From NCBI GenBank assembly GCA_021815905.1, contig JAKAZP010000127.1, forward strand, positions 1 through 7,331: DNA of 7,331 bases, in the 5' to 3' direction. Below, one piece after another: positions 1-7,331 of this stretch. The notes under the pieces are model-generated. The model searched no databases. It saw only the letters and a list, made by a program, of their open reading frames with translations, and had not been told where the DNA came from. The stretch's first letter is position 1. The number at the start of each line of letters is the position of its first letter. Source of the stretch: Pseudomonadota bacterium (GTDB taxonomy: Bacteria; Pseudomonadota; Gammaproteobacteria; Steroidobacterales; Steroidobacteraceae). The position numbers and the translations under genes are program-made.

Positions 1-360
1 CGCCCAGATCACCCCGCCCCGAGGACCTTCCGGCAGGCTCATGGGATTGACGGGCAGCTCCCCGTCCCACCACACGCCGCCGCGCACATAAAAGAGAGTC
101 CGGCCCTCGCCGCTCCAGGCGAGACCCGAAATGTTGTTGCCGTCATCACCCCGATAGCGCGTAAGCCGCCGGGCCGAGTACCCGCCGCCCCGCCCGCGCC
201 GGGCAAGCCACACGTTGCGCGCCCCGCGCTCGTTGTAGATCCAGGCGACGGCGCCATTGCGCGGCGAGGCGACAAGATCGTACGGGAAAGGGGCGCTCGC
301 GATCTCGCCCATGCCGAGAAGCCGGGCGTTCTTCCGCGATGCAGCGGGCTTGTTCTTCAT
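1..360 (-). CDS. S9 family peptidase (prolyl-oligopeptidase/DPP-IV-like), N-terminal part, cut by window edge
   Basis: The frame is open from the ATG at 360 to base 1, giving 120 residues of the N-terminus; the catalytic hydrolase domain lies outside the window. The readable part looks like the start of the beta-propeller domain of S9 serine peptidases. It has a PYDLVASP segment near residue 26, a VAWIYNERGARNVWLA segment at about 38-53, an RLTRYRGDDG segment followed by ISGLAWS, then LFYVRGG and a final NPMSLPEGPRGGVIWA. This order (GRVAW..RN.W.A / LT.y..DDG / L.Ws.dG / yvRGG / NP.s.p.G...iWa) is familiar from S9 peptidases of Gram-negative bacteria. The start is supported by AGGAGC four bases upstream. 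No hydrophobic signal peptide is visible, although many relatives are exported, so the protein may be cytoplasmic. It diverges from the AraC-type regulator gene. The family is recognised by pattern only; substrate and active site cannot be judged. Confidence 0.72.
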   Translation of the reverse strand, partial: MKNKPAASRKNARLLGMGEIASAPFPYDLVASPRNGAVAWIYNERGARNVWLARRGRGGGYSARRLTRYRGDDGNNISGLAWSGEGRTLFYVRGGVWWDGELPVNPMSLPEGPRGGVIWA

Positions 361-382: not shown

Positions 383-427
383 ACCCGGGTGGGATAGCAT
401 CGGGTAATCGCAGTAGCTGTGATCACA
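383..427. promoter_or_regulatory. Two palindromes in the divergent S9 peptidase / AraC regulator gap (possible operators)
   Basis: The short gap between the divergent genes holds two perfect palindromes: ACCCGGGT at 383-390 and TGTGATCACA at 418-427, with centres 36 bases apart. The second has the TGT-N4-ACA shape seen in operators of FadR-subfamily GntR repressors, and a GntR/FCD protein is encoded about 1 kb downstream. It overlaps the most upstream possible start codon of the AraC gene (GTG at 419). If it is an operator, the real AraC start is probably further downstream. Palindromes this short also arise by chance, so function is inferred from position only. No convincing -35/-10 pair was found. 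Confidence 0.3.
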
Positions 428-1402
428 ATAGACCGGGAGGGCGCGGCCTCCAATGGACGATTCGGAGCCGCGACCTGGACTTTTCGCATGCGACAGATCC
501 GTTCCAACATGCGCGCAACCGGGACCGGAACCGCACCGGCTCGGGGTGATCCGGCCGTGACGCGCGCAACGACACCCTCGGTGCCGGCCGTGCGGGTCGT
601 CCGGCTGACCGCGCATGGAGCGCGTCCCGCGGATGCGCACGAGAGCGCGGGCGCCGGACCGGCGGTGGCCCTGCTGTCGCGCGGGTCCGGCTCGCTCGAT
701 CCGGGTCCGCCGCTGTGCGCGCTGTCCTCGCCATCGCTCGTTCTGCTGCCCTCCGCGGCGCGCTGCCCGATGCGCCTCGACGCAGGCGCCCGCGCCGCGA
801 TGGTGTTGCTCGAGAGCTCGTTCGCGCACCTCATGACCGCGCGCGAGCCGGCCTTCGCGAGCCTTTTCAGCGAGGCGCGCGCCCTGCCCCTCGAGCGCTC
901 GGGCGCCGAGCTCCGTAACATCGAATCGACCGTCACCGCGCTCGGCCGGGAGCTCGGGCTCGCGGCCGCGGCTCGCCTCACGGCGATCGAAGCGCATCTG
1001 CAGCTGCTCCTGACCGCGGCGGTGCGCGTGCTCGAGCGCGCCACTTCGCCCCGGCTCGCCGGCGCATCGGCCACGGAGCGCTCGAATCAACTCGTCAGCG
1101 AGTTCCTGCGCCTGGCGCTGGCGCACAGCCGGCAGCGGTGGCGACTGCCGGATTATGCCCGAGCGCTCAACGTCTCGACGGCGTACCTGCGCGCGACCTG
1201 CGTTCGAGTCACCGGCTCCCCGCCCGTGCAGCTCATTCACGAATGCCTGCTGCGCGAGGCCAAGCACCGCCTGATCGTCACCGCTTTGCCGGTCAGCGCG
1301 ATCGCGCTCGAGCTCGGATTCGAGGATGCCGCGTACTTCTCGCGGCTGTTTCACGCCAAGAGCGGTTTCTCCCCGAGGCAATATCGGCTGTCGTTTCGAT
1401 GA
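419..1402 (+). CDS. AraC family transcriptional regulator (PobR-like architecture)
   Basis: The longest reading gives 327 residues from GTG 419. The last 100 residues form a clear AraC/XylS DNA-binding domain. The first helix-turn-helix is at about 243-265 (LPDYARALNVSTAYLRATC) and the second at about 291-314, containing AIALELGFEDAAYFSRLFHAKSG. The domain closes with the family signature GFSPRQYR. The preceding part (about 55-210) looks like the divergent cupin-type sensor domain plus helical linker of PobR-like activators (VALLSRGSGSL near 83-93, helical from about 160). The ligand cannot be inferred. The start is uncertain: GTG 419 has no ribosome site and overlaps a palindrome, while ATG 488, ATG 509 and GTG 557 are in frame. 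Residues before about 50 look like untranslated or low-constraint sequence, so a start near 509-557 is plausible. The GntR gene follows in the same direction after a short gap, so the two may be co-transcribed. Confidence 0.85.
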   Translation: MITIDREGAASNGRFGAATWTFRMRQIRSNMRATGTGTAPARGDPAVTRATTPSVPAVRVVRLTAHGARPADAHESAGAGPAVALLSRGSGSLDPGPPLCALSSPSLVLLPSAARCPMRLDAGARAAMVLLESSFAHLMTAREPAFASLFSEARALPLERSGAELRNIESTVTALGRELGLAAAARLTAIEAHLQLLLTAAVRVLERATSPRLAGASATERSNQLVSEFLRLALAHSRQRWRLPDYARALNVSTAYLRATCVRVTGSPPVQLIHECLLREAKHRLIVTALPVSAIALELGFEDAAYFSRLFHAKSGFSPRQYRLSFR

Positions 1403-1453
1403 CAGCCGAACCCGGCCGACATGTTACGATCAACAAATGACGAGCAGCTTCCC

Positions 1454-2185
1454 ATGGACCTGAAAGCCCATACCAGCTCATTGCAGCCGATCGTGCGCGA
1501 TACGCTGCAGGAACGGGTGTACCTGCGCATCCGCCAGGCGCTCATCCACTCCGAGTTCAAGCCGGGGCAAGTGTTGACGATCCGCGAGCTCGCCCGCCGG
1601 CTCGGCACCAGCATCATGCCGGTGCGCGAGGCGCTGCAGAAGCTGACGGTGGAACGGGTGCTGGAGCTTCTGCCGACGCGCTCCGTCCGGGTGCCGGTCC
1701 TGTCGGCGGAGGAATTCGCCGACATCTGCGAAGCGCGCATGCTGCTCGAGGGACACATGGCGCGCCTTGCCGCCGAGCGCGCCGACCCCGCCGACCTCGA
1801 ACGCATCGAGCAGGCGAGCCGCGCGTTCCCGACCGCCCGCGGGGGATCGCCCACGGTCATCCAGCAGAGAAATCGCGAGTTTCACTTCGCCATCTATCAG
1901 GCCGCGCGTCAGTCGACGCTGATGGAGCTGATCGAGCCGCTGTGGGTGCGCTGCGGGCCGTGCACCGTGGCGCTGTTCGTCGACCTGGGCGCGGAGAAGG
2001 TCAAGCGCGGCGCGGCCGATCAGCACCGGGAAATCCTCGAGGCGATCCGCGCCCGCCGCCCGGCGGAGGCCGAGAAGGCCGTCGTGGCCGACATCCGCGC
2101 GACCAGCGAGCGCTATCAGAAGTATCGGCGCGAGCACGCGGATTTCTTCGAGCAGACGCAGCGCGGGCGCGCGGTCGAGCGGTGA
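1454..2185 (+). CDS. GntR family transcriptional regulator, FadR subfamily (FCD domain)
   Basis: With the ATG at 1454 the protein has 243 residues. A winged helix-turn-helix spans about 13-80: LQERVYLRIRQALI, then KPGQVLTIRELARRLG and the recognition-helix signature MPVREALQKL at 55-64. An all-helical FCD ligand-binding domain spans about 85-223, with the usual EARMLLEGHMARLAAERA, NREFHFAIYQAAR and DQHREILEAIRARRPAEAEKAV blocks. FCD proteins commonly bind a metal through conserved histidines together with a small carboxylate effector. H144 and H191 are present, but the third expected His (A-x-x-x-H-I/L) is Asp213. Members usually repress catabolic genes and respond to organic acids; the effector here is unknown. 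An in-frame ATG at 1421 would add 11 residues without family resemblance; neither start has a good ribosome site. The gene lies directly downstream of the AraC gene. Confidence 0.88.
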   Translation: MDLKAHTSSLQPIVRDTLQERVYLRIRQALIHSEFKPGQVLTIRELARRLGTSIMPVREALQKLTVERVLELLPTRSVRVPVLSAEEFADICEARMLLEGHMARLAAERADPADLERIEQASRAFPTARGGSPTVIQQRNREFHFAIYQAARQSTLMELIEPLWVRCGPCTVALFVDLGAEKVKRGAADQHREILEAIRARRPAEAEKAVVADIRATSERYQKYRREHADFFEQTQRGRAVER

Positions 2186-2306: not shown

Positions 2307-2627
2307 TTACTTCCCGCCCACGCTCGACCAGTAGGCGGCGATGTCGGCGATCTGCGCTTCGCTCAAGCCGAGTGACTTCAGATCCTTCGGGTGCGGCTTC
2401 TTGCCCGCCACGACTTCGTGAATGAGCGAGTCGATGTCGGCGGCGCTCTTGCCCTGCCACATCGTCATCATTCCGCCGTGGCAGGCGACGCAATTCTGTT
2501 CGACCAACGCCTTGCCGGCGGCGGCATCGGCGGCCGAGGCGATGGCGGAGGCCGAGGCGATGGAAGCGGCGGAGGCGGCTCCGAGCAGGAAGACCGCGGC
2601 GAACGAGGCGATCGATGACTTCCGCAT
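2307..2627 (-). CDS. Small exported class I (monoheme) cytochrome c
   Basis: The product has 106 residues. An N-terminal signal peptide (MRKSS, hydrophobic stretch at 7-18, Ala/Ser-rich run to about 37) sends it to the periplasm. One heme-attachment motif, CVACH, is at 46-50. The C-terminal helix (LSEAQIADIAAYWSSV, 88-103) is typical of small cytochrome c folds of the c5/cbb3-associated kind. In relatives the second heme ligand is a Met shortly before this helix. Here that stretch reads AGKKPHPKDL, placing His79 there, while Met53, Met54 and Met56 follow the heme site unusually closely. The heme may therefore be bis-His or use a shifted Met. The start is fixed by AAGGAG seven bases upstream. 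It probably shuttles electrons in the periplasm, and the nearby MtrA/MtrB genes make them plausible partners (inference). It is not in their operon, because the prenyltransferase gene lies between on the other strand. Confidence 0.9.
   Translation of the reverse strand: MRKSSIASFAAVFLLGAASAASIASASAIASAADAAAGKALVEQNCVACHGGMMTMWQGKSAADIDSLIHEVVAGKKPHPKDLKSLGLSEAQIADIAAYWSSVGGK
2532..2563. repeat. Short direct repeat inside the cytochrome c signal-peptide region
   Basis: A 14-base sequence, GGCCGAGGCGATGG, occurs at 2532-2545 and again at 2550-2563, an 18-base period. On the coding (minus) strand it encodes the repetitive Ala/Ser/Ile run at the end of the signal peptide of the small cytochrome c. 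It looks like local slippage in a low-constraint region and not a regulatory or mobile element. Confidence 0.55.
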
Positions 2628-2640: not shown

Positions 2641-2661
2641 GGTCTTTGGAGGGCAGTGTCG

Positions 2662-2682
2662 CATCGCGGCGCTCGCGCGATG
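2662..2682. promoter_or_regulatory. Inverted repeat in the divergent cytochrome c / prenyltransferase gap
   Basis: CATCGCG at 2662-2668 and its exact reverse complement CGCGATG at 2676-2682 flank a seven-base spacer. The repeat lies in the 135-base gap (2628-2762) between the leftward cytochrome c gene and the rightward prenyltransferase gene, about 20 bases upstream of the cytochrome ribosome site. It could be an operator or a hairpin in the cytochrome leader. No convincing sigma-70 promoter was found in the gap for either gene. Confidence 0.25.
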
Positions 2683-2762
2683 AATACGCAAAACTGCCTA
2701 TTCCGCTCGCCGGGACTTGCGTCTTAATGGGCGCCGCCGTTCAATGGAATGGAGAGCCACGC

Positions 2763-3746
2763 ATGACATCCGAAGAGCCGCTGGGTCCCGCCGAGCCGAG
2801 CCTCGCCACACTCGCCGGTGACTCGCTCTGCGCCCGGGCGCGCCGGCTGCTGCTCGCCACGCGGCCCGCGTTTGCGCCGGCGTCGGTGGCACCGGTGCTG
2901 ATCGGCACCGCCTGGGGCTACCGCACGGCCGGCCACATCGACTGGGCGGTCGCCCTGCTCGCGCTCTTCGCCACCCTCCTCGTTCACCTGGGCGCCAACG
3001 TGCTCAACGACGTGGCCGATGACCTCGGGGGCACCGACCGCATCAACGCGGAGCGCATCTTCCCCTACACGGGCGGCTCGCGGTTCATTCAGAACGGCAT
3101 CCTGAGCGGCCACGAGATGGCCGTGTGGAGTGTGACGCTGCTCGGGGCGGCGGTCCTGCTCGGAATCGCGCTGATCGAGCTGCGGGGAGCGGGGATTCTC
3201 GTGTTCGGCCTCATCGGCGTGGCGCTCGGGGTGTCTTACTCCCTGCCCCGCATCCAGCTGGCCGCCCGGGGCATCGGGGAAGCCGCGATTGCCGTCGCCT
3301 TCGGAGTGCTGCCCGTCACGGGCGCCGCATGGCTGCAGAGCGGCCGCGTCGATGAGGCCAGCATCCTGATCTCGGTACCGGTGAGCTTGTGGGTCGCGGC
3401 CATTCTGCTCATGAACGAGGTGCCGGACCGCATGGCCGACGCCCGCGGGGGCAAGGCGACGCTGGTCGTGCGCCTCGGGACCGACGCCACGCGCCGGGTC
3501 TACCTCGGGTTGCAGCTCTCGGCCTGCGCCGCGTTCCTCCTTGCGGGAGCGGTGCGGCTCATCCCGTGGTGGATCGCCATCGCCTCCCTCCTTCTCGTTC
3601 CCGGCGCGCTGAGCGCCGGCCGCGGCATCCGCGAGCCGCTCGATCGCGCCCGCCTCACCGGCAGCATCAGGACCACCCTCGGACTGCACACCGCCGGCTC
3701 GGTGCTGCTGCTCGCGGCGGTGCTGGTCGCGGCGTTGTCGCGCTGA
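2763..3746 (+). CDS. UbiA-superfamily prenyltransferase (MenA-like, quinone biosynthesis)
   Basis: The 327-residue protein is very hydrophobic, with about eight to nine predicted membrane segments between residue 40 and the C-terminus. UbiA-family enzymes transfer a polyprenyl chain from its diphosphate onto an aromatic ring in the inner membrane. Both Mg-diphosphate-binding Asp motifs are present. The first is NDVADD at 82-87, in the context GANVLNDVADDLGGTD; the second is NEVPDRMAD at 218-226, followed by GGKATLVVRLG. The GGSRFIQNGILS stretch at 104-115 resembles the GGS...G.LS segment of MenA (1,4-dihydroxy-2-naphthoate prenyltransferase) more than UbiA proper, so a role in menaquinone or a related quinone is favoured; substrate specificity remains inferred. 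The ATG at 2763 is chosen because GGAGAG lies six bases upstream; the frame is open further, to ATG 2646, without family resemblance. The gene ends 20 bases from the stop of the convergent mtrB-like gene. Confidence 0.88.
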   Translation: MTSEEPLGPAEPSLATLAGDSLCARARRLLLATRPAFAPASVAPVLIGTAWGYRTAGHIDWAVALLALFATLLVHLGANVLNDVADDLGGTDRINAERIFPYTGGSRFIQNGILSGHEMAVWSVTLLGAAVLLGIALIELRGAGILVFGLIGVALGVSYSLPRIQLAARGIGEAAIAVAFGVLPVTGAAWLQSGRVDEASILISVPVSLWVAAILLMNEVPDRMADARGGKATLVVRLGTDATRRVYLGLQLSACAAFLLAGAVRLIPWWIAIASLLLVPGALSAGRGIREPLDRARLTGSIRTTLGLHTAGSVLLLAAVLVAALSR

Positions 3747-3766: not shown

Positions 3767-5878
3767 TCATTTCCCCATCCGATAGAGGAACGATACGCCG
3801 ACGAGATCGACGGCGTAGCGATAGGGCGCAGCCCCGAGGGCGAGCAGCGTCGGAATGGTATCCGGTGACACGTTCTGCAGCGCCCAGTCGCTCGTGCCGT
3901 AGCGCGAGCGCTCGCAGCGCAGCGTGAGAGTGAGCGCCGGCGACCAGGCGTAGGTCGTCACGAGCTTGATCGTGTCGAGTCCGGTGCGGTCCTCCGGGAA
4001 CGGCTCCGCGGCGTAGCCCGGCAGCAGCAGCATGTCGGAGCGCGAGTCGGCGCGCTGGTAGTCGAGCTTGAGGCGCCAGCGGGCGGCGAGCGCGAGCTGA
4101 CCCCCGCCGCCCGCGGTCCAGAAGTACTGCCCCATCCGCTCCCGCCACACCGCAGCCCCGGCGGTCTCCAGGCCGGCGAGCAGTGATTCGAGGTGCTGAT
4201 AGCTGCCGTCGACGTAAAGGCTCCAGGGCTTCGGCGGCGCCCAGGTGAGGGTCGTCGACAGCTCGCGCTCGCGCGATTCCCGCAGGCCGAGCTGCGTGAG
4301 CCGGTAGGCATCCGTCGCGCCGGTGCCTTCGATCGAGGCGCTGAGCGCCGCGGTCATCAGCCAGGTGGCCCGGACGCTCAGGAACTCCCGGTCGCGCGGC
4401 GCATAGTCGAATGCGCGCAGGAGCGGGTTCTCATCGAGCGGCAGCGCGGTAGTCTGGAATGCGGACGCATCGCGCGTGTCGCTCCCGCCCTTCACCGTGA
4501 GACTCAAGGCCGCAAGCGGCGTGAGCGTGCCATAGCCCCACACGGAACGATTCAGGAGCGAGGTCAGCACCTGTCCCGGGGAGTAGTGCGTGTCGGTGTA
4601 ATCGCCCCCCACGCCCGCTCGCGCCCAGCGAAAGAGCCGATAGTCGGCGCTGCCGTCGAGCCGCGTCCGGTCATCACCGTAGCGCGGCGTGACATACGTG
4701 CCGCCGGGAAGGGTGTCGGTGACGACGTAGGAGATGGCAAGCGGGGTCGTGTGATCGTCGCGACCGTCGTAAGTCGCGCGCCCGCGCAGGCTCAATCGGC
4801 CCGCGGGGGTGAGCGCCAGCGCGAGCGCGTAGTGACTCAGGTCGACATCGCCGCCGAGGGAGCCCGGGAGCAGCACCGGATCGCCCGCCAGCGTGCTGCC
4901 GGGAACGAACGAGCCTTGCTGCGAGAGCTGACCGTCCGAGGCGAGGTAACTCAGAGCGCCCGACCAGAATGGCAGCCGCACCTCCCCCGAGACCGCCACC
5001 TGTTGCAGGGCGTTGTCGGGCGGCAGGGCGAGCCGGCCCGCGATCGACTGCGGCACGACGGACAGGTAGGGATTCTGAAAGTAGAGCTGATCGAGGTCAT
5101 CGTGAAACCACGAGCCGGTATAGGCGAGGCGCAGGCTCGCCTCGCGTCCGGCCCAGAGCGCTCCGGCCTCGAGGGTGTCGGTATGGCGATCGACCGGTTC
5201 GGGTAGCTGCACCGCCTGAAGCAGGAAGCTCGCTCCGGTGAGGTCCGTGCCGGCCTCCTCCGTGTGGCTGAACTTGCCGAACATCGTCCAGACGCTGCTG
5301 GCGAAGTATTTTCCGCTCAGCGCGAGGGTGCGCCGGTCGGACTCGATCCGCACGCCCTCGAGGCTCGCGGAGAGCGCGGTCATCCCGGCCGTCGTGCCGG
5401 CGCTCACCCAGTTCGGCGGCAGCACCAGTGTTCCGGTGCCGACGCTGCGGAAAGGCGTCACCGTGTCGTCGTACTGCCTGAACGGCTGACCTTGATAGGA
5501 AATGCGCAGCTCGTACCGGCCTTCCTTGCCTTCGGTCACGCGCGCTCTGCGGGAGGGCAGTCCCGCCCGCTCGAGATTGAAGCTGCCGTAGTCACCGTTC
5601 CGGGTGCGCCATGCGCCGTGCGCGCCGGCCTCGAGATAGGCTCCGTTGCGATCGATCCCGGTGTAGCGCCCGGAACTCGCGTTGGCGCCCTGCGCGGTGG
5701 CGATGCCGCCCTCCACGGTGGCGTTCGCGCCCTGGTAGAAGGGGCAGAGCTTGCAGGTCCAGGCGCTGGTGTCAGGTCGCGGCGGATCGGCGTGCGCGGG
5801 CGATGCGGCCAGCGCGGCGGCGAGCGCGGTCGCCACCGCGAGCGCGACGGCGGTATCTCTTGAATGGGCGTGCCTCAT
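3767..5878 (-). CDS. mtrB: MtrB/PioB-type outer-membrane beta-barrel of a porin-cytochrome conduit
   Basis: The 703-residue product is close to the length of Shewanella MtrB (about 700). Residues 1-30 form a signal peptide ending in SPAHA. The mature N-terminus carries the CXXC signature of this family, C42-K-L-C45, followed by PFYQG. The remainder is alternating-residue beta-strand sequence rich in aromatic and polar residues with charged loops, as expected for a large barrel (about 26 strands in the family). MtrB-type barrels sheath the decaheme MtrA so that electrons cross the outer membrane to a surface cytochrome. The preceding decaheme gene and the MtrC-type gene before it on the same strand make the assignment firm. 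The ATG at 5878 lies eight bases after the mtrA stop with only a weak TAGG ribosome site, suggesting coupled translation. The C-terminus (FLYRMGK) lacks the usual terminal aromatic residue of outer-membrane barrels. The reading frame continues upstream for 55 codons inside mtrA, but that extension precedes the signal peptide and is not used. Confidence 0.93.
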   Translation of the reverse strand: MRHAHSRDTAVALAVATALAAALAASPAHADPPRPDTSAWTCKLCPFYQGANATVEGGIATAQGANASSGRYTGIDRNGAYLEAGAHGAWRTRNGDYGSFNLERAGLPSRRARVTEGKEGRYELRISYQGQPFRQYDDTVTPFRSVGTGTLVLPPNWVSAGTTAGMTALSASLEGVRIESDRRTLALSGKYFASSVWTMFGKFSHTEEAGTDLTGASFLLQAVQLPEPVDRHTDTLEAGALWAGREASLRLAYTGSWFHDDLDQLYFQNPYLSVVPQSIAGRLALPPDNALQQVAVSGEVRLPFWSGALSYLASDGQLSQQGSFVPGSTLAGDPVLLPGSLGGDVDLSHYALALALTPAGRLSLRGRATYDGRDDHTTPLAISYVVTDTLPGGTYVTPRYGDDRTRLDGSADYRLFRWARAGVGGDYTDTHYSPGQVLTSLLNRSVWGYGTLTPLAALSLTVKGGSDTRDASAFQTTALPLDENPLLRAFDYAPRDREFLSVRATWLMTAALSASIEGTGATDAYRLTQLGLRESRERELSTTLTWAPPKPWSLYVDGSYQHLESLLAGLETAGAAVWRERMGQYFWTAGGGGQLALAARWRLKLDYQRADSRSDMLLLPGYAAEPFPEDRTGLDTIKLVTTYAWSPALTLTLRCERSRYGTSDWALQNVSPDTIPTLLALGAAPYRYAVDLVGVSFLYRMGK

Positions 5879-5889
5879 GCCATGGCCTA
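5875..5889 (-). promoter_or_regulatory. mtrA-mtrB junction with a two-codon mini-ORF overlapping the mtrB start
   Basis: Reading leftwards, the mtrA stop TAG (5889-5887) is followed by GCC, then ATG GCA TGA. The TGA overlaps the mtrB ATG as ATGA (5878-5875). The eight-base spacer GCCATGGC is itself a palindrome. The only ribosome-site-like sequence for mtrB is TAGG, containing the mtrA stop. A ribosome ending mtrA could therefore restart directly at mtrB, either alone or after the Met-Ala mini-ORF. The arrangement is seen directly; the coupling is inferred. Confidence 0.4.
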
Positions 5890-7035
5890 CCGCATCAGCG
5901 CCCGACCCGATGGGCTGTTGGAACCGTGCACCCGGGAGTGACAGTTGACGCAGCCTCCCTCGAGCAGGAAGGGATTCGGCATGCCCGCGGGCAGTCCCTG
6001 CGGTCCGTAGGGCACCGCGGGGTGCCCGGCGGCATCGTGGCATTCCTGACAGAGAATCGGTGGCCGCTCCTTGAGCAGCGCGGGCTGCACCGAGCCGTGG
6101 GGGGTGTGGCAGTTGGCGCAGCTCTCGGTGACCGGCTGATGCTCCCAGAGAAAGGGCCCGCGGAACTGCGCGTGGCAGCTCGTGCAGGTCTCATCGATCG
6201 TGCTCTTCACGAGCATGGCGCGCGCGGTGGAGCCGTGCGGATCGTGGCAGGACGAGCAGGTCATCGTGCCCTCGGGTACCGGATGGTGATAGGGCGCGAG
6301 GAACGCGGCGCTCACCGCCTGGTGGCACTTCGCGCACACCTGCGCCTCGGTCGATTGGGTGCGCACCGGATCCGCGGCGCTGTGGATCCGGTGGCAATCG
6401 ACGCAGCTCACCTCATTGGCCGCGTGCGCGCTCGCGGCCCAGGCGTGCCCGACGCTGGATCGGTGACAGCCGAGGCACATCGCGTTCTGCTTCGCGACCG
6501 GGGTCGGGGACTTCCGACCGAAGACGACGATGCCCATCGGCTTCATGCCGAATGACTTGACGTGCGCGCCCCCGGGCCCGTGACAGGCCTCGCACTGCAG
6601 GCCCCCGGGCCCGAAGGGTCCGTGGGGATCCCCGGGACGGGCGTGCGCCGTGCGAAAGATCGCCATCAGCTTCCTGTCCGCGCCGTGGCACGCGAGGCAG
6701 GTGTCGGCCCCCTGGGCGCTGTAGCCGAGCGCGGCCGGGCTGTCCGAAGCGGCGCCGGGCACGGCGGGACCTCGGGCGGCCGGCGCGGCACTGCTGGGCG
6801 CAGGAACCGTCGCAGCAGCCGGTGCCGTCGCAGCAGCCGGTGGCGTCGCAGCAGCCGGTGCCGTCGCAGCAGCCGGTTCCGTCGCGCTGACCGTGCCCGG
6901 GCCCGCGGGACTGCTCGCCGCCGCCGCGATCGAAGCGGACAGTGCCCCGGTGAGCAGACAGAGCAGCGCGATCGCAGTGAGCCCTCCCGCGGCTGACCGC
7001 GGAGCGGGCGGTACCCCCCGCGTTGACCTCTTCAT
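5887..7035 (-). CDS. mtrA: Decaheme c-type cytochrome, MtrA/PioA/DmsE family, with Pro/Ala/Thr-repeat N-terminal tail
   Basis: The 382-residue protein has exactly ten CXXCH heme motifs, with first Cys at 113, 148, 187, 211, 234, 260, 284, 306, 329 and 362. The arrangement, including CEACHGPGGAHVK near 148-160 and several CXXCH.PHG repeats, is that of the MtrA/DmsE family. Residues 1-40 are a signal peptide (RSTRG, hydrophobic 18-33, Ala run to 40). Between the signal and the first heme lie about 70 residues rich in Ala, Pro and Thr, including four hexapeptide repeats of the PAAAT type at about 54-77. MtrA of Shewanella (about 333 residues) lacks such a tail; PioA of phototrophic Fe(II) oxidisers has an N-terminal extension. 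MtrA threads inside the MtrB barrel and wires the periplasm to the cell surface. The gene starts 16 bases after the mtrC-like stop, with AAGGA overlapping that junction, and ends eight bases before mtrB. The Cys in the signal (ALLC) is not a valid lipobox. Confidence 0.95.
   Translation of the reverse strand: MKRSTRGVPPAPRSAAGGLTAIALLCLLTGALSASIAAAASSPAGPGTVSATEPAAATAPAAATPPAAATAPAAATVPAPSSAAPAARGPAVPGAASDSPAALGYSAQGADTCLACHGADRKLMAIFRTAHARPGDPHGPFGPGGLQCEACHGPGGAHVKSFGMKPMGIVVFGRKSPTPVAKQNAMCLGCHRSSVGHAWAASAHAANEVSCVDCHRIHSAADPVRTQSTEAQVCAKCHQAVSAAFLAPYHHPVPEGTMTCSSCHDPHGSTARAMLVKSTIDETCTSCHAQFRGPFLWEHQPVTESCANCHTPHGSVQPALLKERPPILCQECHDAAGHPAVPYGPQGLPAGMPNPFLLEGGCVNCHSRVHGSNSPSGRALMR
6808..6885. 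repeat. Four 18-base tandem repeats encoding the Pro/Ala/Thr tail of MtrA
   Basis: Units begin at 6808, 6826, 6844 and 6862, followed by a six-base partial copy to 6885. All share CGTCGCAGCAGCCGGT and differ only in the last two bases. On the coding (minus) strand each unit gives a hexapeptide of the PAAAT-X type, with X being Ala, Pro or Val. Near-identity at the DNA level suggests recent expansion by slippage, so copy number may vary between strains. Confidence 0.9.
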
Positions 7036-7042
7036 CGGACGC

Positions 7043-7047
7043 CGGTC
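7043..7047 (-). promoter_or_regulatory. Ribosome binding site of the mtrA gene
   Basis: On the minus strand GAGAAGGACC follows directly on the mtrC-like stop codon (7054-7052). The AAGGA core lies about seven to ten bases before the ATG at 7035, a slightly long but acceptable spacing. It supports the chosen start and a single mtrC-mtrA-mtrB transcript. Confidence 0.5.
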
Positions 7048-7051
7048 CTTC

Positions 7052-7331
7052 TCAGTCCGGGAAATCGGCGAGGTCGTGCACCACCTTCACGTCCGCGACC
7101 GCCCCGGGTCCGTGGCAGATGGCGCAGGTCTCGACGCTCGCGGACACGAGGCTGCCGGAAACGGTCTTGGCCGCGGTGAAATTGGCGCCGTTCTGCAGCA
7201 TGTGCTCCCTGGCGGTCGGGTCGGTGTGACAGCTCGAGCAGACCGCGGCGTTGGGCGTGATCGCCACATCGTCGGCGAGCGTCGTGCGGTCGTTCGACAC
7301 GATGGTGCTCGCCTGCACGGTGGCGTCGTTC
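7052..7331 (-). CDS. mtrC: OmcA/MtrC-family outer-surface multiheme cytochrome, C-terminal end, cut by window edge
   Basis: The frame is open from the right edge to the TGA at 7054-7052, giving the last 92 residues. Two heme motifs are present, CSSCH and CAICH, about 40 residues apart. The closing pattern is typical of the end of OmcA/MtrC decaheme cytochromes, where these are the last two hemes: AVCSSCH.D..AREHM..NGA.F, then VETCAICHGPGAVADVKVVH. In that family the protein sits on the cell surface, docks on the MtrA-MtrB complex and passes electrons to minerals, flavins or other acceptors. It is the upstream gene of the operon and lies 16 bases before mtrA. The number of hemes in the missing part, the lipoprotein signal and the mtrC/omcA distinction cannot be judged here. 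The symbol is assigned from the gene order C-A-B. Confidence 0.82.
   Translation of the reverse strand, partial: NDATVQASTIVSNDRTTLADDVAITPNAAVCSSCHTDPTAREHMLQNGANFTAAKTVSGSLVSASVETCAICHGPGAVADVKVVHDLADFPD

Follow-up and report, generated by a model that had tools for sequence, protein, structure and literature searches.

An MtrCAB-type gene set beside a MenA-like prenyltransferase gene in a gammaproteobacterial contig

Which quinone would feed an MtrCAB-type conduit whose genes lie next to a prenyltransferase gene, and in which direction would its electrons flow? This question is raised by contig JAKAZP010000127.1 of the Pseudomonadota assembly GCA_021815905.1, whose stretch of 7,331 nucleotides (the window) was analyzed here. 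The window contains the 3' end of an mtrC/omcA-type gene followed by complete mtrA and mtrB genes, in the order C-A-B on one strand, and this reading from an earlier note on the same DNA was confirmed. Next to them lie genes for a MenA-like prenyltransferase and a small cytochrome c; the remaining members of the cluster described below are found in relatives. Judging from sequence, the MtrCAB conduit is of a known kind and its quinone coupling is what would be new. We propose that the locus probably encodes an outward MtrCAB chain fed by its own dedicated naphthoquinone branch.

The conduit genes of the window

The three leftward genes are direct neighbors, as the earlier note had described, with spacers of 16 bases between mtrC and mtrA (7036-7051) and 8 bases between mtrA and mtrB (5879-5886). 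The product of the truncated mtrC gene gave 58.4 bits with TIGR03507 in an alignment that spans positions 601-672 of the 672 in the model (the full-length cut-off of 209 bits is beyond the reach of a fragment), and 50.2 bits with PF22113 (cut-off 30). It shares 60% identity with the last part of the L001 MtrC, a decaheme protein. L001 is the sole genome-contig locus found (metagenome-assembled genome (MAG) BP9.bin95), and its MtrB is 67% identical to that of the window. MtrA, in which the ten predicted CXXCH motifs were counted, scored 289 bits with TIGR03508 (cut-off 192) and matched PDB 6r2q_A (E 2e-79); the name that the depositor gave this chain, 'Cystathionine beta-synthase', is an obvious mislabel. 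MtrB, with its CXXC at the predicted place, scored 301 bits with TIGR03509 (cut-off 240) over the entire length of the profile (3-662 of 662), 350 bits with PF11854 (cut-off 23), and matched 6r2q_B (E 2.1e-54). We take 6r2q to be the MtrCAB of S. baltica. With the upstream gene placed in OmcA/MtrC and the barrel in MtrB/PioB, the interpretation of these genes as an extracellular electron transfer (EET) operon is supported. About 60 residues of Ala/Pro-rich repeat separate the signal peptide of MtrA from its first heme motif.

The locus shares with Shewanella MtrCAB (6r2q) the C-A-B order, the decaheme MtrA, the MtrB barrel with one N-terminal CXXC and the OmcA/MtrC-type exit cytochrome. It differs in having no omcA/mtrDEF/cymA block, in its adjoining MenA-like and monoheme cytochrome c genes, and in its host family. 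With the MtoAB/PioAB uptake systems it has MtrA-MtrB homologues in common; unlike them, it carries the end of an OmcA/MtrC-type gene directly upstream of mtrA, and no MtoC/MtoD-type partner was seen in the window.

Table 1. Positions, strands and characteristics of the genes recognized in the window.
Feature	Positions	Strand	Characteristics
mtrC/omcA-type gene, 3' end	7052-7330	-	92 residues, two CXXCH, runs past window edge; TIGR03507, PF22113
mtrA	5887-7035	-	382 aa, exactly ten CXXCH, signal peptide, Ala/Pro-rich linker; TIGR03508
mtrB	3767-5878	-	703-aa MtrB/PioB barrel, sole CXXC at 42-45; TIGR03509, PF11854
MenA-like prenyltransferase, GGSR subfamily	2763-3746	+	327 codons, convergent with mtrB; TIGR00751, PF01040
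Monoheme cytochrome c, candidate periplasmic carrier	2307-2627	-	106 aa, one CXXCH, divergent from MenA-like gene; PF13442 31.3 bits (cut-off 27)
GntR/FCD regulator	1421-2185	+	PF07729 84 bits, PF00392 57 bits; flank, outside conserved cluster
AraC-type regulator	419-1402	+	PF12833 70 bits; flank, outside conserved cluster

The gene cluster in relatives

Protein matches that bear a source name are from Steroidobacteraceae (e.g. P0015, MtrB, 68%; P0147, prenyltransferase, 67%), and the closest MtrB (P0001) and prenyltransferase (P0123) are 93% and 99% identical to those of the window. The family of the nearest genomes is probably Steroidobacteraceae-like. In the family of the L001 genome, PF11854 was matched in 55 of 217 genomes at E <= 0.001 and in 53 over its cut-off; the 46 MtrB genomes at >= 80 bits were kept for association tests and nine weak ones were left out. 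Up to 20 kb around mtrB was taken from the family genomes, and the loci were compared by tblastn. A FastTree phylogeny of concatenated MtrA and MtrB was built from the window and the 38 loci with both proteins (one locus had no MtrA and one no MtrB). It took in no Shewanella, Sideroxydans or Geobacter sequences and does not assign the window to any of the groups in PMC8805035. In this tree G001 is the sister of the window (support 0.90), within a nine-member clade (support 1.0) whose other members are G034, G018, G028, G032, G045, G022 and G035.

All eight other clade members display the same set of neighboring genes: a HemN-like gene, mtrC, mtrA, mtrB, a small cytochrome c gene, the MenA-like gene and a heptaheme fusion gene. 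The gene hypD comes next after the fusion in seven of them; the contig of G035 ends there, and the HemN-like gene of this genome is truncated by the contig end. In each of the eight, the MenA-like gene adjoins mtrB, the small cytochrome gene lies in a window-like place or between mtrB and menA, and the mtrC homologue encodes ten CXXCH motifs. The arrangement of the small cytochrome and MenA-like genes in the window is that of G034, G028, G018 and G035. A [NiFe] hydrogenase adjoins the conduit in G001, G034, G018 and G028 (4/8), and a contig starting with a HemN-like fragment and also carrying a hydrogenase (G035:C131) suggests the same adjacency in G035.

The L001 MtrC scored 469.7 bits with TIGR03507 and matched OmcA 4lmh (E 8.5e-44). 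At its start this protein (6222-8891) has a lipobox-like LAAC, and a collagen-like Gly-x-y stretch comes next. At least one extra large open reading frame (ORF) with nine or ten CXXCH motifs lies upstream of mtrC, as if mtrC were duplicated, in L035, L037, L041, L047, L049, L051, L059 and L060. Eight loci (L061-L067, L074) form a second MtrAB group in the family, with longer MtrB frames, a ten-CXXCH MtrA and no MtrC match, and are MtoAB/PioAB-like.

The MenA-like gene, whose likely start is the ATG at 2763 within a longer ORF (2646-3746), had been called UbiA-type. Judged by profiles and motifs, its product is a MenA-like prenyltransferase that belongs to a subfamily of its own: TIGR00751 (the menA model) gave 108.1 bits (cut-off 102.2) and PF01040 95.6 bits, and the cut-offs of the longer PRK06080.x menA models were not reached. 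A generic UbiA label was rejected, the menA model having been passed and UbiA proper being a separate gene (28 of 30 genomes over cut-off). Among 37 family homologues aligned from 33 genomes, the subfamily is found in 26 genomes, including the whole clade, and displays NVxNDVxDD...PYTGGSRFIQNG...NEVPD-type motifs, which vary slightly. The copies linked to menB (G148, G150, G152) have NDVFDFERGADNADRLGPQR...NNLRD motifs; in place of these canonical motifs, the window gene carries an insertion together with GGSR and NEVPD motifs. The closest solved structure by sequence is human-type UBIAD1 (8djk, 46 bits).

The association with MtrB was also assayed in 274 genomes sampled across the class, where MenA-like genes (E <= 1e-40) occur in 20, MtrB in 19 and both in 7 (p 1e-4); with two family members removed, six genomes have both (p 4e-4). 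These tests, like the other associations between MenA-like, MtrB and hydrogenase genes, are uncorrected for ancestry. By strict pattern, GGSR is present in 6 of 19 MenA-like genes of this sample. Co-occurrence of MenA-like genes and MtrB may be wider than their adjacency.

The HemN-like gene upstream of mtrC in the relatives, a radical-SAM gene that mostly bears the name HemN, matched NF006385 with 425-436 bits (cut-off 355). Assignment to HemN was rejected: TIGR00538 gave 113-120 bits in three scanned proteins and 113 bits in that of L001, against a cut-off of 325; the HemW cut-off was also far from reached. Six motifs set the class C radical S-adenosylmethionine menaquinone methyltransferases MenK/MqnK apart from HemW (PMC10320005, part of the text, citing Wilkens 2021). 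A motif script run on 13 HemN-like proteins detected the FeS motif in 13, GxxFxxxYxGGGT in 13, YFxxxRxE in 12 and the exact QxTxYPL in none. By eye, RxSxGxQxF is present in the L001 and L053 proteins, which match MenK/MqnK exactly in four of the six motifs and with one conservative change in two. The protein is thus a putative MenK by its motifs. Over-cut-off copies occur in 25 of the 217 family genomes, 24 of them with hydrogenase and 20 with MtrB; menA is present in 23 of these 25 vs 12 of the 192 others. The available part of PMC8805035 mentions one mtr cluster with a 'HemN' upstream of it and reads this gene as heme synthesis.

The fusion encoded in the relatives combines a heptaheme cytochrome c with an FdnI-like b-type quinone module; its heme-c half gave a poor structure model. 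A relative's MtrB (P0002, 79%), MenA-like protein (P0125, 86%) and fusion (P0272) each come from one Joint Genome Institute (JGI) contig of 6,872 bases, probably the same one, and a fusion gene is therefore likely nearby in a more closely related genome. In architecture, the fusion resembles CbcL, the bc-type low-potential menaquinol oxidase of Geobacter sulfurreducens (PMC12307469, in part), since it has a multiheme c part and an FdnI-type b membrane part. CbcL differs in its partners, which in Geobacter are the periplasmic PpcA and conduits other than MtrCAB (same source, in part).

Four-CXXCH genes lie beside hydrogenase and mtrCAB in L048 (4340-4948, minus strand) and L070 (4597-5301, minus strand). 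The L048 gene belongs to the NapC/NirT/CymA family (201 bits) and perhaps replaces the fusion as quinol dehydrogenase. A formyl-transferase + enoyl-CoA-hydratase protein (L001 17994-19847), presumably a HypX-like hydrogenase maturation candidate, is conserved next to hypD in a number of relatives. In L106 (1748-3493) and L044 (7140-11090), subunit genes of a V/A-type ATP synthase lie no more than a few kb from the MenA-like gene.

Electron source and direction

From these gene neighborhoods, the following chain can be proposed. H2, through the hydrogenase where present, or another donor would reduce a low-potential quinone. The MenA-like enzyme would prenylate a naphthoate-type ring, its presumed substrate, and UbiE together with the MenK-like methyltransferase would complete a low-potential menaquinone-type carrier. 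The fusion would act as quinol dehydrogenase, oxidizing the quinol at the periplasmic side, and its electrons would pass to the small cytochrome c or straight to MtrA. MtrA, a decaheme wire in the periplasm, would run through the MtrB barrel, with the surface decaheme MtrC as exit, the electrons most likely passing outward to minerals or humics. We infer that MenK-like, fusion and hydrogenase genes are present in the window's own genome.

For synthesis of the ring, searches covered menD and MqnA/D in the 217 family genomes and menB in 30; menF, menC, menE and menH were not searched. Completeness figures are lacking for these genomes, so that single gene absences are weak evidence. Four genomes (G061, G062, G150, G152) have menD over cut-off, none of them among the 26 with the GGSR subfamily; weak matches of the menD model to other enzymes of the same fold occur in 211 genomes. 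For menB, G061, G062, G148 and G152 exceed the cut-off (4 of 30) and G150 has a partial match; none of the 22 GGSR-subfamily genomes tested (of 26) does so, the best score being 217 bits against a cut-off of 343 (G022). MqnA/D was found in none of the 217 genomes, the control set being matched in 4 of 14. UbiE is over cut-off in all 30 genomes. Among 20 proteins scanned beside MenA-like genes outside mtr clusters, no ring-making gene was recognizable. In G061 (L101) and G062 (L102), ordinary menA-like copies share contigs with menD and menB; therefore two differing quinone arrangements exist within one family.

On this gene content, GGSR-MenA genomes could complete menaquinone if given 1,4-dihydroxy-2-naphthoate (DHNA), no known DHNA-making route (menD, menB, MqnA/D) having been seen. 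The naphthoquinone pool is perhaps built from a scavenged precursor. A parallel is Lactiplantibacillus plantarum, in which quinone-auxotrophic EET is described and DHNA use was tested (PMC10746273, part of the text): there too, DHNA-prenylating genes are retained and the rest of the menaquinone pathway is missing. Unlike the present bacteria, it is Gram-positive and uses flavin-based EET with no heme conduit. A more tentative version of our proposal would make mtrCAB part of a self-contained respiratory island. In it, an orphan, non-canonical MenA and a MenK-type methyltransferase would make a special low-potential naphthoquinone-type carrier, from a neighbor-supplied precursor or by an undescribed ring route, coupling H2 oxidation to EET via the FdnI-heptaheme fusion.

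Several observations weigh against a dedicated quinone branch. With the DHNA-pathway genes missing, menaquinone is only a possible product. In the HemN-like proteins of L001 and L053, QxSxYPL stands for QxTxYPL and Thr for Asn in NxFxxxxY; moreover, a C. jejuni protein of the MenK clade is reported as a heme chaperone (PMC10320005, in part), and because of this the MenK assignment is only a lead. No MenK-like, fusion or hydrogenase gene was seen within the window, and the place that the fusion takes in G028, G034, G018 and G035, on the left side of the small cytochrome gene, is occupied there by GntR and AraC genes. The hydrogenase is not adjacent in G032, G045 and G022, whose NiFe genes are on other contigs, and mtrCAB of some family members has a MenA-like gene but no adjacent hydrogenase. 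In 18 of the 46 MtrB genomes no menA scores >= 66 bits, and some of these 18 have an MtoAB-like pair lacking MtrC. Of the 7 genomes with both MenA-like and MtrB genes in the class-wide sample, just two carry them on one contig, namely G001 and G298 (about 90 kb apart in the latter), so adjacency is a local arrangement.

Part of this evidence fits a different account, which we consider rather unlikely: an ordinary MtrCAB reduction conduit would run on the host's general respiratory quinone, mtrCAB having inserted into an H2-oxidation module made of the MenA-like, MenK-like and fusion genes. Indeed, G046 (L107, that is G046:C153, 5312-8900) has hydrogenase, MenK-like, small cytochrome, MenA-like, fusion and hypD genes and no mtrCAB. 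The absence of mtrCAB between the MenK-like and cytochrome genes would represent an empty site or a loss. Because G046 holds the entire set, the quinone genes may chiefly serve H2 oxidation. The menA-hydrogenase link (32 of 35 menA genomes) is also tighter than that of menA with MtrB (28 of 35), and in G061 and G062 a hydrogenase and a gene of CymA/NapC type lie beside mtrCAB (family assigned in L048 only). The position of the MenA-like gene speaks against such a module, since it adjoins mtrB and not the hydrogenase, also in many loci where no hydrogenase is adjacent (L042, L045, L051, L059, L049, L044, L046, L068).

Inward operation in the manner of MtoAB/PioAB, with Fe(II) or mineral oxidation, is improbable in our view, even though the MtrB/PioB family spans both directions and MtrA-MtrB homologues perform uptake in Rhodopseudomonas palustris (PMC8805035, part of the text). 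The direction, which the earlier note had left open, is most likely outward, because the same gene set includes an MtrC, decaheme in the relatives, because hydrogenase and a low-potential-type quinone module adjoin the conduit in relatives, and because the separate MtrC-less MtrAB group of the family (eight loci) is a better uptake candidate. A role of the conduit in supplying a terminal reductase of the DMSO (dimethyl sulfoxide) or iodate type, whether soluble or on the surface, instead of minerals is very improbable: no molybdenum-reductase gene was seen in the annotated neighborhoods, where only part of the ORFs were scanned, and an MtrC-type exit cytochrome is present. TIGR03508 is nevertheless named after DmsE, and DmsEF-type modules exist (PMC11302344, in part).

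Flanks, lineage and meaning

The earlier note found the neighborhood unlike the classic Shewanella cluster. This holds for the flank: the AraC and GntR genes were recognized by Pfam and, with the S9-like frame, are not conserved, no match at E <= 1e-5 being obtained by tblastn in the family loci searched. These genes were consequently rejected as parts of the system. It does not hold for the 'UbiA-type' gene, which is a conserved neighbor of the conduit. The S9 peptidase claimed at 1-318 (minus strand) had no Pfam match and its label is unconfirmed; the monoheme cytochrome c gene was not in the earlier list.

That the host may belong to a lineage new to this trait stands in part. Steroidobacteraceae are not named in the main text of the mtrCAB survey PMC8805035, and no published mtrCAB link naming them was found among the matches listed. 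On the other hand, loci of the mtrCAB type are frequent in the family to which the nearest genome belongs, and Steroidobacteraceae are tabulated as carriers of EET genes (0.90 of MAGs; PMC12285243, Table 1, where mtr genes are unnamed in the part available). Lineage novelty is modest because of this publication. No published tie of a MenA-like or MenK-like gene to mtrCAB appeared among the matches listed.

If the quinone coupling is true, 'HemN'-labelled genes beside mtr clusters, such as the one in PMC8805035 (in part), may be quinone enzymes, and a mobile conduit can bring its own electron-carrier enzymes. A group of uncultured gammaproteobacteria may then respire minerals only with a quinone precursor obtained from others, or use an unknown quinone route.

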